Assembly: GCA_001304015.1 (NCBI GenBank)
Contig: LJUY01000078.1
Location: 1-10,323, forward strand
DNA: 10,323 bases
Origin: a candidate division Zixibacteria bacterium SM23_81
GTDB lineage: Bacteria > SM23-81
Reading direction: 5' to 3'
The notes beneath the pieces are model-generated. The model was not told the DNA's origin and made no database searches. It saw only the letters and a program-made list of their open reading frames with translations. Each line of letters begins with the position of its first letter. The stretch's first letter is position 1. This document shows, piece by piece, positions 294 to 9,519 of the stretch. Both the position numbers and the translations under genes were made by a program.

Positions 294-1328
294 TCATCGA
301 CTGTCTTGATCCAGCCCCAGCTCCTTCGCAAGTTTGACTATGCTGTCCCAGATTTCCTCAGGTAAGGGGATGCCCTCTTTCATCCGTTTCTCTTTCGTCT
401 CCCATTCAGGTTCACCTGGGATGAGCACTTTGTTGCCCGGTTCTGGTTCAACGGCTTTTACCTGGGCGATTAGCTGGTCTGTGTTCCGTTTGAAGTTGTC
501 CAGCCCCACGAAAGCCTCAGGGTTGATGGCTATCGCAAACACGCCATTCGCCGAGGGAGGTATACGGTTTGGGTTAGGCCCTGTCCTAGATCCCGTGAGG
601 ACAGCGCCGAGGAGCTCAGAGACGAGCTGAAGGCAGTAGCCTTTGTACAGCCCGAAGGGAAGGAGCCACCCCCCTTCTTTGACTGCGAATGGATCGTCAG
701 TGGGGTTATTATCACTGTCCCTGGCCCAGTGGGTTGGTATCTTCGCGTTTTTCGCCCTGGCGACGGATAATTTTCCGTCGGCGACGACGGATGTGGCGTA
801 GTCTGTTAGGAAGGGTTCGGTTTCTCCGGTGGGGACTGCCACGCTCAACGGGTTTGTCCCAAAGAACTTGCCGAGGCCCCCGAAGACCGAGACAGAGGGT
901 GTGCCGACGTTGACAAACATGAGGGCTATTATGCCCTGTCTTGCCGCCCAGTCGGTGTAGAATCCGATGCGGCCTATGTGGTTGCAGTTGAAGGCGCCGA
1001 TGGCGCTCACCATGTTTTCCTTCGCCTTTCTTACAGCAGCTTCGACGAGGTACTTGGCGGTGACTTGGCCGGGGGCCCATCTGCCGTCGATTAGGGCCGT
1101 GGTGGCCGTCTCCTGGACGATCCTGGGCTCTGCGTCGACCTGAATGTGACCGCCTTTGATGCGGTCAGAATAGGTCACGTAGTATTGCACGCCGTGGGAG
1201 TCGTGGCCCGTGAGGCTTGCCTCGACCAGGGTCTCTGCGACGAATTTAGCTTTCTCCTGCGTCAGCCCTTGGGCCTTGAATATTTCGGTGCCCAGTTTCA
1301 GAAGCATGTCTGCGGGTTGGAGGAACAT
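294..1328 (-). CDS. Malate/L-lactate dehydrogenase family (Ldh2) NAD(P)-dependent oxidoreductase
   Basis: A 344-residue protein of the Ldh_2 family (malate, L-lactate, L-sulfolactate, ureidoglycolate and related 2-hydroxyacid dehydrogenases with a non-Rossmann fold), at the family's usual length. Visible motifs are TGHDSHGV (residues 40-47), CNHIGR with a conserved histidine at 117, the nucleotide-binding GTNPLSVAVP (157-166), and the long LYKGYCLQLVSELLGAVLTG block (227-246). It should catalyse reversible oxidation of a 2-hydroxyacid to a 2-oxoacid in the cytoplasm; the substrate cannot be read from sequence. The frame stays open upstream to 1538, but that would overlap the neighbouring aldolase gene and adds a low-complexity Arg-rich stretch. 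The ATG at 1328 fits both the family start and a TATA element 27 bases ahead. Confidence 0.92.
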   Translation of the reverse strand: MFLQPADMLLKLGTEIFKAQGLTQEKAKFVAETLVEASLTGHDSHGVQYYVTYSDRIKGGHIQVDAEPRIVQETATTALIDGRWAPGQVTAKYLVEAAVRKAKENMVSAIGAFNCNHIGRIGFYTDWAARQGIIALMFVNVGTPSVSVFGGLGKFFGTNPLSVAVPTGETEPFLTDYATSVVADGKLSVARAKNAKIPTHWARDSDNNPTDDPFAVKEGGWLLPFGLYKGYCLQLVSELLGAVLTGSRTGPNPNRIPPSANGVFAIAINPEAFVGLDNFKRNTDQLIAQVKAVEPEPGNKVLIPGEPEWETKEKRMKEGIPLPEEIWDSIVKLAKELGLDQDSR

Positions 1329-1350
1329 GTCGATAGACAATGAGGCGAGG

Positions 1351-1381: not shown

Positions 1382-2358
1382 TTATACCTTTGGCACGAGC
1401 TCGGCTATGCCCTGGAGGAAGGCTTCGATGTCCTCCATTTCGATGCCGTAGTGGGTGACGAGCCTCAGTCTGGAGGTCGTGCCCCGGCTCTTCCAGCCGA
1501 GCTTGGCGCATGCCTCGGTCCATTCGATTCCGGTCCATCCGAGGTCTGAGAGGTCGATGTAAACCATGTTGGTCTTCACGGGGTTGAGTATCTTTATGCC
1601 GTTTATCTCGCTCAGGCCTTCGGCAAGTCGTTTGGCGTTAGCATGATCGTTTACCAGCCTATCCACCATCTTCGTAAGTGCGACGATGCCGGGGGCTGCT
1701 ATGATCCCCACTTGCCGCCTCCCGCCACCCAGCATCTTCCGATACTTGCGGGCCTTCTTTATGAGGTTCTCTGGTCCAACTACCATGGATCCTATTGGGG
1801 CGGATAGGCCCTTGGAAAGGCAGATCTGAACGGTGTCGGCGTACTGGGTCAACTCTTTGACGTCGACTCCAAGGGCAATGGCAGCGTTGAAGACCCTGGC
1901 GCCGTCGAGGTGCACTCCTAGGCCGTGCTCTTTGGCCACGTCCCAGTCGGCCTTCATCTGGTCGACGGTTAGGGGGATGCCTCCTGAGGTGTTGTGGGTG
2001 TTCTCCACGCAGAGGAGGGAAGTGGGGGCGTGGTGGATATTGTCGCCCCTCACGGAAGCCCTGATGTCTTCGGGCTTGATCCAGCCCATCTCGCCTTCTA
2101 TGGTGCGGGCCATGAGGCTTCCCATGACGGCGAGTCCTCCAACCTCGTTCAAGTAGATGTGGCTGTTTCTTTCTAGGATGATCTCGTCGCCTCTGTTGGT
2201 GTGGGAGAGGATGGCCACGGCGTTCCCCTGGGTACCGCTGGTGACGAAGAGGGCGGCCTCCTTTCCAAGCATCTCGGCGGATAGGCGCTCGAGCTCATTG
2301 ACGGTGGGGTCGGCTTAGTGACCGTGTCGCTCCTGAAGTCGAGGTTCTTCTCTACCAT
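1382..2358 (-). pseudogene. ltaE: Low-specificity L-threonine aldolase, broken by a small deletion and frameshift
   Basis: PLP-dependent fold-type I enzyme that cleaves L-threonine or allo-threonine to glycine and acetaldehyde. The gene is in two frames. From the ATG at 2358 it reads MVEKNLDFRSDTVTKPT, the family's N-terminus, then leaves frame. The rest (from about 2305) reads TVNELERLSAEMLGKEA and continues intact, with the PLP-lysine motif CLSKGLSAPIGS, HLDGAR (PLP-binding Asp and Arg), ENTHN and SGTQGN. The family segment normally between the parts, about 20 residues including GDDVYGEDP, is absent. The join lies at GACCCC (2306-2311 on the plus strand as ggggtc), which fits loss of 61 bases between two GACCCC copies. 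A protein started at the internal ATG (2272, 296 residues) would lack the N-terminal arm and this loop. It could be a real null allele or an assembly error. Confidence 0.85.
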
Positions 2359-2404: not shown

Positions 2405-3055
2405 TTAACTATACCGGGATGCGTTCAGGTGTGACTGTTTGATGTGCTCGCCGGCGTTCTCGAGGACCGGAGTGCCATGCCCGGGGAGCATTATGTCCAC
2501 CTCTAGCTCGGTGAGCTTCCTCAGGGAATTGATGATTGCCTTGAGGCTGCCCGACTCCCCGTCACATCTTCCAAAGCTACCTTCAGGGAACACGGTGTCT
2601 CCTGAGAACAGTATCTTGCGATCCTCGTTGTAGAGACACACGCTGCCCTCTGTGTGCCCCGGGGTCCAGATGACCTCAAACGGCCCGATCTCCGTCTCGA
2701 TTAGGTCCCCGTCCTCGACTATCACGAGGTTTTGACCGAATCTTGAGGCTATGTACTTGGTGTCCAGTTTGTGGACGAAGACCTTGGGGTCGGCTCTCTC
2801 GAGGATGATGAAGGCTCCCATTGCGTGGTCATGGTGGGCGTGGGTGAGGACGATCCCTTTCACCATGTTTGGGGTCACACCGAGTTCCTCGAGCTGAGGC
2901 CAGACAGGATTAGCGTAATTGCCAACGCCAGTGTCAAATATCACGGCTTCGTCTTTCCCGACGACATAGATGTTGCTGCAAAGGCCTTCACCGATTATTA
3001 GATGTATGCCCTTTAATCTTTCTGAGTATTCGCCCAAATCAAAGGTCCTTGGCAA
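2405..3055 (-). CDS. Metallo-beta-lactamase-fold hydrolase (glyoxalase II-like)
   Basis: A 216-residue cytoplasmic metallohydrolase. The full dinuclear metal site of the family is present: THAHHDH (His72, His74, Asp76, His77), His134 in PGHTEGS, Asp153 in SGDTVFPEGS and His193 in PGHGTP. The order and spacing match glyoxalase II-like and archaeal MBL hydrolases; the physiological substrate (thioester, lactone, phosphodiester or other) is unknown. Flavodiiron or RNase J-type extra domains are absent. The start is a TTG at 3055, the only start available before a long stretch without ATG, GTG or TTG. A TATA-like TTTTTATT (3086-3093, minus strand) lies about 34 bases ahead, and a perfect palindrome sits between it and the start, suggesting operator control. 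The broken aldolase gene follows after 46 bases on the same strand. Confidence 0.9.
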   Translation of the reverse strand: MPRTFDLGEYSERLKGIHLIIGEGLCSNIYVVGKDEAVIFDTGVGNYANPVWPQLEELGVTPNMVKGIVLTHAHHDHAMGAFIILERADPKVFVHKLDTKYIASRFGQNLVIVEDGDLIETEIGPFEVIWTPGHTEGSVCLYNEDRKILFSGDTVFPEGSFGRCDGESGSLKAIINSLRKLTELEVDIMLPGHGTPVLENAGEHIKQSHLNASRYS

Positions 3056-6626: not shown

Positions 6627-7289
6627 ATGGCGATCTATTCCAAACTTTCATACTCAGTAAATTTATACTTCGCGCGGAAATCAGTTGATGCCCTAGATTT
6701 ACCCCTCGAGTCCAGTCTTTTCCAGATAATTATGACCTTCCCCTTCAATGTTATACTGGTTATAGCATTGGTTTTGGTTGTTGGGATCATTCTGTCCTTC
6801 ACTAGGAAACCAGCACGCTCCAACACACCAAAGGTAGACGTGGAGAGCCAACCCACGCAGAAAGCGGGTGGAGCGATGCCCAAGATCACACGAGAGGTCA
6901 ACTTAGAAGGACATTCCGTGGAGGTCGTGCAGGGGGTAGAAGAGGAGATACCCCGGAGCTTCGAGGGCAACAAGGACGGGGTCGTCAAGCTTTACAACTG
7001 GTTCTACCGATTCGCTCAATGGAGATTAGGGGGTATTGCCGATAATATTACGCCAAGGGAATTCGTGAATATCGTTTCTGGTAAGATCCCCTCCGAAGGA
7101 ACCTCCGCCTTGATATATTTTGTGACGTGTTTCGAGATAGCAAATTACAGTAAAATCAATCTGGAGGAAGAGATGCTATTAAAGTGTTTGAAGGCTGTTG
7201 AAGTGCTGAAGGATCTAATTGAAGATGGGAGTTCGCGCGTGAGTGATGATGTTATAGAACTTACGGAGACCTCTCCAGTACTCAGCTAG
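6627..7289 (+). CDS. Single-pass membrane protein with DUF4129-like cytoplasmic domain
   Basis: A 220-residue protein with one clear membrane segment (NVILVIALVLVVGIILSF, 41-58), a linker rich in Pro, Lys and Thr (59-115), and a soluble helical domain (118-200). The soluble part has the pattern of DUF4129: VVKLYNWFYRFA, then ITPREF (141-146), then a region like ALIYFVTCFEIANYSK (161-176), and a final charged helix. DUF4129 domains usually sit at the C-terminus of transglutaminase-like proteins or beside MoxR/DUF58 genes; none of those partners is here, so this is an orphan and its function is unknown. The ATG at 6627 has a TATA-like ACATAAAG about 23 bases ahead. A second ATG (6732) just before the membrane segment is an alternative start. 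Confidence 0.8.
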   Translation: MAIYSKLSYSVNLYFARKSVDALDLPLESSLFQIIMTFPFNVILVIALVLVVGIILSFTRKPARSNTPKVDVESQPTQKAGGAMPKITREVNLEGHSVEVVQGVEEEIPRSFEGNKDGVVKLYNWFYRFAQWRLGGIADNITPREFVNIVSGKIPSEGTSALIYFVTCFEIANYSKINLEEEMLLKCLKAVEVLKDLIEDGSSRVSDDVIELTETSPVLS

Positions 7290-7507
7290 CATAAATAATA
7301 AGCGTGCACGTATCGCTTCTCTAATTCAGAAGACTATCGCCCGCGCGCGAGATTTTATCAACTAATTCATTTTTTCAGACAATAGATGTGGATAGGATCC
7401 CAACGGGAAGCTGAGAACATCCTCTAGGACAAAATTTTAATGCTCTGTAAACCTTTCGAGGGGCCTCGAAGGAGAATGAACTTTAAGTGGTCTTCGATGA
7501 CATCCTT
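7290..7507. other. Intergenic region between convergent genes, with hairpins
   Basis: No credible coding sequence. It holds a short CTTCT/AGAAG inverted repeat (about 7317-7332), a CGTGCACG palindrome, a GC-rich cgcccgcgcgcg patch, and a six-T run (7367-7372) that could end the plus-strand transcript. The second, stronger inverted repeat near 7455 is listed separately. Confidence 0.4.
7455..7470 (-). terminator. Inverted repeat downstream of the winged-helix operon
   Basis: TTCGAGG, then GG, then CCTCGAA: perfect 7-base arms, about 40 bases past the stop of the minus-strand operon. On that strand it is followed by AT-rich sequence including AAAATTTT (about 7431-7438). It may help end transcription or be a protein-binding palindrome. 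Archaeal terminators depend mainly on T-runs, so the call is tentative. Confidence 0.35.
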
Positions 7508-7768
7508 CTACTTTTGTGGTTCAATCCCTTTGGAGAACCCGAATGGCTCCGTAAACTCATGATATTGGGTAAGGAATCTATTTCCTTTATCTGTTGTGAA
7601 ATACCGCCCCCCCTCAGAATCCAGGAACCCGTATTCCGATAGTCTGGTGATGTACTTCTTGATTATCTTGAAGTTCAGATTGGCCTTGTAGACCATTTGA
7701 GTTTTTATGGCCCCTTCCTTTGCCACATTAAGAAGGTCGGCGCAGATGTCAAGATCGTTTCTTCTCAA
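7508..7768 (-). CDS. ArnR1-like winged-helix transcription regulator
   Basis: An 86-residue protein whose length and pattern match the archaeal single-domain winged helix of the HTH_45 / ArnR1-like type. The visible parts are a first helix with ICADLLNVAKEG (8-19), IKTQMVYKANLN (21-32), the recognition-helix region FKIIKKYITRLSEYGFLD (33-50), the beta wing GGRYFTTDKG (53-62), and a last helix. Such proteins bind DNA as dimers and often regulate their own or neighbouring genes. The start is a TTG at 7768 whose bases overlap the TGA of the upstream gene (TTGA), pointing to translational coupling. It is the last gene of a three-gene operon. Target genes are unknown. Confidence 0.85.
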   Translation of the reverse strand: MRRNDLDICADLLNVAKEGAIKTQMVYKANLNFKIIKKYITRLSEYGFLDSEGGRYFTTDKGNRFLTQYHEFTEPFGFSKGIEPQK

Positions 7769-8124
7769 GAACTTAGCCCCCTGGAATTACCTGTTGCTGA
7801 TTGCGCACGCGCATTACCTTGAACGCTAATCTGAGAACTCCCCACCTTGTCTACACTATAGAGTTTCTTGTAGACAGATTGCCACTTGCCTTCTTTCACA
7901 TTATCGGATATTTCCCTGATGACCTCTCGGAAAGCCCGCTTCTGATCGCTATCCTCATACTTGTAGTAGATAGCCGATAGATCCGACCATACCTCGCTCT
8001 TATCTAGCTCGAGATCCATCTTAGAAGGTGGAATTACTTTCGAAAGGTATCTCCTGATTCCTCCTAGCACGTTGTGTGTAATGTCGGATATTCCAATTTT
8101 TTGTGCTACGTTCATTTGGTACAC
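7765..8124 (-). CDS. Uncharacterised 119-residue protein in the winged-helix operon
   Basis: No family recognised. Residues 1-30 and 43-92 look mainly helical, with a charged middle (WSDLSAIYYKYEDSDQKRAF, 46-65) and a Trp/Tyr-containing helix (KEGKWQSVYKKLYSVDK, 77-93). The last 25 residues are Ser, Gln, Ala and Gly-rich and probably disordered. There is no signal peptide or membrane segment, so it is cytoplasmic. The GTG start at 8124 is favoured over the ATG at 8115 because an AGGAG motif (8135-8139) sits 10 bases before the GTG and overlaps the stop of the zinc-ribbon gene. Its TGA overlaps the next gene's TTG. Co-translation with a zinc ribbon and a winged helix suggests a regulatory or nucleic-acid-linked role, as inference only. 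Confidence 0.75.
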   Translation of the reverse strand: MYQMNVAQKIGISDITHNVLGGIRRYLSKVIPPSKMDLELDKSEVWSDLSAIYYKYEDSDQKRAFREVIREISDNVKEGKWQSVYKKLYSVDKVGSSQISVQGNARAQSATGNSRGLSS

Positions 8125-8137
8125 TATTTTTCAACTC

Positions 8138-8308
8138 CTAATCTGATTGGATGACCCATTCGTTCTTGGGGATAGAGCCCACGTGTTTTATGAGAACTGC
8201 ATTATCCGTCATTATGGAGAAGTCTGAGTTACATGTTTCACAGTGATAATTGTCGTTGGTGTGGGATACTTGGGACAGGCAGATCGGGCATGTGTTTAGT
8301 TCAACCAT
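8138..8308 (-). CDS. Small zinc-ribbon protein, first gene of the winged-helix operon
   Basis: A 56-residue protein starting at the ATG at 8308. It reads MVELNTCPICLSQVSHTNDN and onward, with Cys7 and Cys10 (CPIC) and Cys23 and Cys26 (CETC), a single four-cysteine zinc ribbon, followed by a short strand-rich tail ending NEWVIQSD. A textbook GGAGG (8317-8321) lies 8 bases before the ATG, and a TATA element (8349-8357) lies about 45 bases ahead, giving a leader of about 18 bases. The downstream gene starts 13 bases after its stop, with its ribosome site overlapping the TAG. Ribbons this small usually bind nucleic acid or protein partners; the role here is unknown. It is easily missed because of its length. 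Confidence 0.8.
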   Translation of the reverse strand: MVELNTCPICLSQVSHTNDNYHCETCNSDFSIMTDNAVLIKHVGSIPKNEWVIQSD

Positions 8309-8348
8309 TTTCTAATCCTCCACTTAGTCCTATAGCTGCTTTTGGTTT

Positions 8349-8357
8349 GATTTAAGG
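8349..8357 (-). promoter_or_regulatory. TATA element of the zinc-ribbon / winged-helix operon
   Basis: CCTTAAATC on the minus strand, centred about 45 bases before the ATG at 8308. The predicted transcript start, near 8326, leaves a short leader that contains the GGAGG ribosome site. This contrasts with the leaderless neighbours. Confidence 0.45.
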
Positions 8358-8418
8358 CTTCTCTAACGATTTTGGAAAGTATTTTCTGTTATAATCCAAT
8401 ATTTGCCTATTTTTTCCA

Positions 8419-8456
8419 TTTTTGAGATATTTTCCCAAAAAGGGAACTAATCTTAG
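8419..8456 (+). repeat. Copy 1 of a promoter-like repeat
   Basis: TTTTTGAGATAT (8419-8430), then TTTCCC, then AAAAAGGG (8437-8444), and TCTTAG (8451-8456). The same three blocks recur in the same order at 8909-8941. This copy lacks a good TATA core and instead holds a TTCCC/GGGAA hairpin. Confidence 0.5.
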
Positions 8457-8695
8457 AAACAGAGATCCGACACAAAATTATACCCTAAGTTTGGATACTG
8501 GTACAACTCCAAATACATTAACGATGTGTAACTATTATGTGCGCGTGATCAGTATAATCTTGGATTTTATAGTTAGTCCCATCTCGACAAGGTTTGTATA
8601 ATAAAAAGACCGCTTGGGCCATTTCTCATATTCTAGGGAAGTAACAATTGAACGTCTTTTCTTGAGACATTGTGTTCCTATTTGGAGGAATTTGA

Positions 8696-8752
8696 ATGTT
8701 AATGAAGATTAATACTGATGTGGTGCGCGTAACCGTACTACGTGCACTTTAG
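8696..8752 (+). CDS. Possible 18-residue peptide ORF with a strong ribosome site
   Basis: ATG at 8696 reading MLMKINTDVVRVTVLRAL then TAG, with GGAGG (8684-8688) 7 bases before it. A TATA-like TATAATAAAAAG lies about 90 bases upstream. The ribosome site is as good as that of the zinc-ribbon gene, but the ORF is so short that chance is a real possibility. No homologue is known to me. Confidence 0.2.
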   Translation: MLMKINTDVVRVTVLRAL

Positions 8753-8908
8753 GTGGATTTGGGTTAGAGCAAACCTGCGGTTCTTGGGATGATCTCTATA
8801 GTGAGGATAAATATTGTTGAAGACTGTGTTTTCGTTTTTAACTTAATCTTTATGGAAAATTGATACTTCTTTTTACACATTTTATCATCAATATTTCTAT
8901 TCATAATG

Positions 8909-8941
8909 TTTTTGAGATATATATTTAAAAAAGGGTCTTAG
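8909..8941 (+). promoter_or_regulatory. Copy 2 of the repeat, with a strong TATA core
   Basis: TTTTTGAGATAT (8909-8920) runs into ATATTTAAAAAAGGG and TCTTAG (8936-8941). The TATATATTTAAAAAA core is the strongest TATA-like sequence in the window. A transcript from it would begin near 8950 and serve the gene at 9035, passing through the 20-codon ORF at 8959. Confidence 0.5.
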
Positions 8942-8958
8942 TTTGTGAACGGAAAATA

Positions 8959-9021
8959 ATGGATAAGTGCAAATTTAAAATATCAAGATTGATTGCGCAG
9001 GTCACTATTTCATACATGTAG
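8959..9021 (+). CDS. Possible 20-residue upstream ORF
   Basis: ATG at 8959 reading MDKCKFKISRLIAQVTISYM then TAG, about 9 bases after the predicted transcript start of the strong TATA at 8909-8935. It stops 4 bases before a GTG and 13 bases before the ATG of the next gene, and is in a different frame. It could be an upstream ORF that affects translation of that gene, or chance. Confidence 0.15.
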   Translation: MDKCKFKISRLIAQVTISYM

Positions 9022-9034
9022 ACACGTGAGAAGA

Positions 9035-9361
9035 ATGAAGAACGTCGGAGCATCGAAAAAAGGTAGGGAAGAGGATCCCTTGTCGGTTCTTTACCAAATG
9101 GATGAGGATCGACATATTCACGAGGGGGAAGCCTTGATTATGATAATGAAGATGCTTAACGACGTCGAAAAAACTGATATGCTAAGGATTGGCCTCAGAG
9201 AGATCGTGGATTCCGATGAGGTGTTAGGTATGCGGTTACTGAATCTTCTCGATAGTATTATTGTGGGAATTAAAAGAGAGCAGATGGTACGTGCGAATAG
9301 AGAGTGGAAACATAGATTTTCGCGTATGTTTGAGCGCACACGACTCGATATGTATTCATGA
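9035..9361 (+). CDS. Uncharacterised helical protein
   Basis: A 108-residue protein from the ATG at 9035; in-frame GTG (9026) and TTG (8993) starts are possible but less likely, since a TTTAAAATAT element around 8971-8981 would place the transcript start after the TTG. It is all-helical by eye, with EALIMIMKMLNDVEKTDMLR, then DEVLGMRLLNLLDSIIVGIK and a basic C-terminal helix (REWKHRFSRMFERTRLDM). There are no cysteines, membrane segment or catalytic motif. The pattern of hydrophobic heptads and a basic tail would suit a small oligomeric nucleic-acid-linked protein, but that is speculation. No family recognised. Confidence 0.65.
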   Translation: MKNVGASKKGREEDPLSVLYQMDEDRHIHEGEALIMIMKMLNDVEKTDMLRIGLREIVDSDEVLGMRLLNLLDSIIVGIKREQMVRANREWKHRFSRMFERTRLDMYS

Positions 9362-9426
9362 GTACTTCTTGCACATGCGATGTACGCTCCGAAAGTGAAT
9401 GTGGATTGCACGCCTATGTGAAGCTT

Positions 9427-9519
9427 TTATTCGGCATTTCCCTTCTCCTTCTCAGCTGGTTTCCTCGTGGAATACATCACGTGCCTGTACGCCCACGCGA
9501 GCGCCAGTGACCAGACTTC
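9427..9519 (-). pseudogene. Possible C-terminal remnant of a lost gene
   Basis: Between two stops the minus strand reads EVWSLALAWAYRHVMYSTRK then PAEKEKGNAE and TAA. It has a protein-like end of hydrophobic helix, basic turn and charged tail, as in membrane-protein C-termini, and a GC-richer wobble than its surroundings. There is no start or ribosome site at its beginning. It may be the leftover end of a gene whose body was replaced. Evidence is weak. Confidence 0.22.

Follow-up and report, generated by a model that had tools for sequence, protein, structure and literature searches.

A probable 61-base micro-homology deletion interrupts the threonine aldolase gene on a Bathyarchaeia contig wrongly binned with a bacterial genome

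The stretch of DNA analyzed here (the window) spans the whole of contig C39 (10,323 bp), part of a genome bin of 3.07 Mb, and it carries on its minus strand, at 1382-2358, an L-threonine (L-allo-threonine) aldolase gene that is split over two reading frames. Was this gene broken by a real deletion in the organism, was it damaged only on the way to the assembly, or does it still encode a working enzyme in a shortened form? The first-pass annotation, made from the sequence alone, had recognized a threonine aldolase and proposed that about 61 bases were lost between two GACCCC repeats. The features needed to follow the argument are listed below.

2308..2358, minus strand: surviving N-terminal aldolase codons, MVEKNLDFRSDTVTKPT, in the original frame; the next P codon begins inside the repeat
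2306..2311, minus strand: sole remaining GACCCC, at the join of the putative deletion; 61 bases short relative to all orthologues
1382..2305, minus strand: remainder of the threonine aldolase (TVNELERLSAEMLGKEA... to the stop) in the second frame, with no other stop or indel; the listed ORF starts from ATG 2272
2173..2304, minus strand: out-of-frame tail of the N-terminal ORF past the join, without a family match
297..1343, minus strand: malate/L-lactate dehydrogenase family gene (Ldh_2), downstream, a conserved neighbour
2405..3055, minus strand: metallo-beta-lactamase-fold (MBL) hydrolase gene, upstream, a conserved neighbour

The N-terminal ORF (2358-2173, minus strand) starts from ATG 2358 with MVEKNLDFRSDTVTKPTP, the first 18 residues of the aldolase, and then runs into an out-of-frame tail before its stop, giving 61 aa in total. 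In the second frame the aldolase picks up again as TVNELERLSAEMLGKEAALFVTSGTQGN and is stop-free down to 1382; the ORF at 2272-1382 (minus strand) accounts for 296 aa of it and continues the enzyme in a frame different from that of the N-terminus. This 296-aa ORF matches the Pfam family PF01212 (Beta_elim_lyase) with 277 bits (cut-off 27) over profile positions 44-285, so that the first 43 profile positions are absent from the match. Both the PLP lysine region (CLSKGL, here within ICLSKGLSAP) and the DGAR motif (HLDGARVFNAA) are present in this remnant. The N-terminal RSDTVT motif is also kept in the window copy, but it is not joined in frame to a GDDVYGEDPT block. The gene belongs to PF01212 by descent, and its product is probably not functional.

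Close orthologues (67-79% identity) were found in a scan of public genomes in Bathyarchaeia only, and more were obtained from the genomes around the best match. Six of them (L032, L033, L034 and L107-L109; 78-79% identity) share the order MBL hydrolase - aldolase - Ldh_2 with the window and differ from it in being all intact, with open frames of 350-395 aa. Most close Bathyarchaeia relatives have one such aldolase gene. The intact orthologue L032 aligns with the solved structure 1jg8 over residues 6-335 (E 4e-106), and the region from RSDTVT to the GDDVYGEDPT block is ungapped. The remnant resembles the L-allo-/low-specificity L-threonine aldolases (PF01212; structures 1jg8 and 9e97) in its PF01212 match; unlike them, the window copy lacks a 20-residue block, is shifted in frame at that point, and has an arginine at a conserved hydrophobic site. 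In the collection of papers searched, none treats threonine aldolase together with Bathyarchaeia.

The archaeal affiliation of these orthologues does not agree with the bin. The bin carries a bacterial RpoC (1,823 bits, above the cut-off) and no archaeal RpoA2 above the cut-off. These RNA polymerase models settled its taxonomy; a search of the bin with an archaeal SSU rRNA model detected no rRNA gene and so gave no taxonomic signal. From Ldh_2 through to the methyladenine glycosylase, the window genes correspond in order to those of Bathyarchaeia genomes, at 58-79% identity and with small local rearrangements. The tetranucleotide profile of the window correlates at 0.67 with that of Bathyarchaeia L032; for 18 samples of the bin the correlation is only 0.13-0.46. 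By synteny and composition, the contig is from Bathyarchaeia and has been misplaced in a bacterial bin, misbinning being the simplest explanation. Transfer of the whole archaeal segment into a bacterial genome is a less simple alternative, and the contig showed no bacterial features. The first 6.4 kb of the window are syntenic; the part at 6627-9500 holds sparse, small ORFs without matches in the loci fetched from relatives. The bin contains one other aldolase (on contig C40, intact, 45% identical to the window copy). Since the window contig is archaeal and misbinned, this aldolase probably comes from another organism, and we dropped it as a candidate functional backup.

When the window gene is aligned as DNA with 13 intact Bathyarchaeia orthologues, the only internal gap in the region of the join spans exactly 61 columns (48-108). 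Across the join, the family sequence reads KPTP-EMREAxxxAxxGDDVYGEDP-TVNELE. The spacing from KPTP to TVNELE is 20 residues in all 13 close relatives; over all loci fetched, some of which repeat one genome, it is 20 residues in 70 of the 73 matches and 23 in the other three, and a form without the block occurs in 0 of 73. Because 61 bases equal 20 codons plus one base, the same loss changes the frame. The expectations of the first-pass annotation are borne out in each of these respects: the enzyme identity, the size of the loss, the two frames, and the roughly 20 missing conserved residues, as well as the constant presence of the block in homologues and the absence of the short form from every orthologue compared. 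Natural length variation of the block was rejected on the same counts, and programmed frameshifting was rejected on the grounds that the 20 residues are gone and not merely out of frame.

At the join, GACCCC is present in one copy (2306-2311, minus strand). The hexamer occurs in the window about as often as expected (7 observed, 6.5 expected), and its significance is in its fit to both ends of the deletion. In the intact relative L043, the two homologous ends read TTACCGACCCCT...GAGGACCCCACC, with GACCCC occurring twice, 61 bp apart, while the closest relative, L032, has it at the left end only. In simulated deletions of 20-149 bp in ten intact orthologues, junction homology of at least 6 bases arose in a proportion of only 0.0019 (0.19%). 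The locus thus shows what is expected of a micro-homology deletion, namely one repeat copy at the join and, in the unbroken form, matching sequence at both ends; the exact ancestral bases at these ends in this lineage would be those that the relatives suggest. The earlier proposal of GACCCC at both ends, with one copy left, agrees with the single copy at the join and the pair in L043.

The remnant shows no sign of long neutrality. Its dN and dS to L032 are 0.137 and 1.17. Over the three nearest relatives its dN spans 0.137-0.145, which is lower than the 0.159-0.193 found among those relatives, themselves intact. Relative-rate counts are balanced (11 v 24 and 19 v 15 against L032, 22 v 22 against L033). 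Of the 138 columns invariant in 10 relatives, three are changed in the remnant, and intact copies show 1-5 such changes. One substitution stands out: residue 185 of the ORF (window 1385-2272) is arginine (LGGGMRQ to LGGGRRQ), at a site that is hydrophobic in 103 of 103 homologues and methionine in 96 of them. It is a possible early sign of decay, or second hit. From the uninterrupted remnant and its normal evolutionary rate, it follows that the lesion is either recent or absent from the organism; the substitution pattern fits equally well an intact gene that was damaged solely in assembly.

Taken together, the 61-column gap, the ever-present block, the GACCCC at both ends in L043, and the 0.2% chance of such homology support a real 61-base micro-homology deletion in a Bathyarchaeia archaeon, which we consider quite likely to have broken the aldolase gene, so that the cells that were sequenced carried it as a newly formed pseudogene. 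The mechanism put forward in the first-pass annotation is thereby supported. The deletion would have had both ends in the short GACCCC direct repeat, with one copy retained, and replication slippage or micro-homology end joining may have been the route. The 5' part of the gene would in this way have lost 20 conserved codons and one base. Translation from the normal start would then be out of frame past 18 residues and would stop after 61, so an active protein is very probably not made. The window gene is predicted to lack aldolase activity, and we favour the view that it has lost its function. A comparable event is known from the pyrE2 hotspot of Halobacterium salinarum, where spontaneous deletion at a short direct repeat was attributed to strand misalignment (PMC2816208); that hotspot loses 7 nt at 9-nt repeats lying next to each other, whereas the deletion proposed here spans 61 nt, involves repeats of 6 nt, and comes from an uncultured archaeon.

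The main alternative is that the deletion is confined to the assembly or the library, through a chimeric molecule, a template switch at GACCCC during amplification, or the assembler's choice of a rare strain path, and that the gene of the organism is intact. Amplification artefacts likewise use micro-homology, the contig has a length of just 10.3 kb and has already ended up in the wrong, bacterial bin, and no clear relaxation is seen in the remainder of the gene, as expected of a functional gene. In the scan of public genomes and the set around the best match, the nearest genome stood at about 79% protein identity, which leaves room for a chimera in the library or a variant from a minor strain. 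Against this, no second copy or variant contig of the locus is present in the bin, and 6 bases of homology fall well below the length that could lead astray an assembler based on k-mers or overlaps. As the repeat is too short for assembly collapse, a real micro-homology deletion is favoured and an artefact appears unlikely; the deletion probably arose in living cells and not during library preparation. Of the two origins left by the first-pass annotation, a recent event is therefore upheld by the uninterrupted remnant and its normal rate, and assembly collapse is weakened by a repeat much shorter than assembler k-mers.

A working shortened enzyme, made by re-initiation at ATG 2272 or by frameshifting at the join, is far less probable. 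The long 296-aa open frame with its ATG persists, and the Lys, His and Asp/Arg motifs sit within it. However, a product restarted at ATG 2272 would have neither the DFRSDT motif nor the GDDVYGEDP block, and a frameshift product would still miss the 20 conserved residues. There is no Shine-Dalgarno-like sequence upstream of ATG 2272, a TAA lies just ahead of the join in the second frame, no counterpart of the short form exists in any orthologue compared, and the arginine at position 185 also speaks against it. More improbable still is that the short form has become fixed in the lineage and that the remnant, translated from the internal start at ATG 2272, is retained as a shortened protein for a different role.

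The real deletion that we prefer involves no new mechanism and is probably an ordinary, recent gene-breaking event, a clean example of gene loss via short-repeat deletion in an uncultured archaeon. Automatic annotation could be misled here by the internal ATG into listing a 296-aa 'threonine aldolase', and the wrong bacterial assignment of the contig matters to users of the bin. Among the relatives, we observed two other irregular genes. Locus L045 (match from 6001; CP070659.1, isolate bin796) has a second aldolase copy that is N-terminally truncated, starting from query residue 55-56 at 66-67% identity; the same genome also has an intact aldolase, and the truncated copy looks like an independent fragment or pseudogene. 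In L032, the methyladenine glycosylase (1536-1716) appears as two short pieces in different frames and is probably degraded, and it is intact in the window and in L033.
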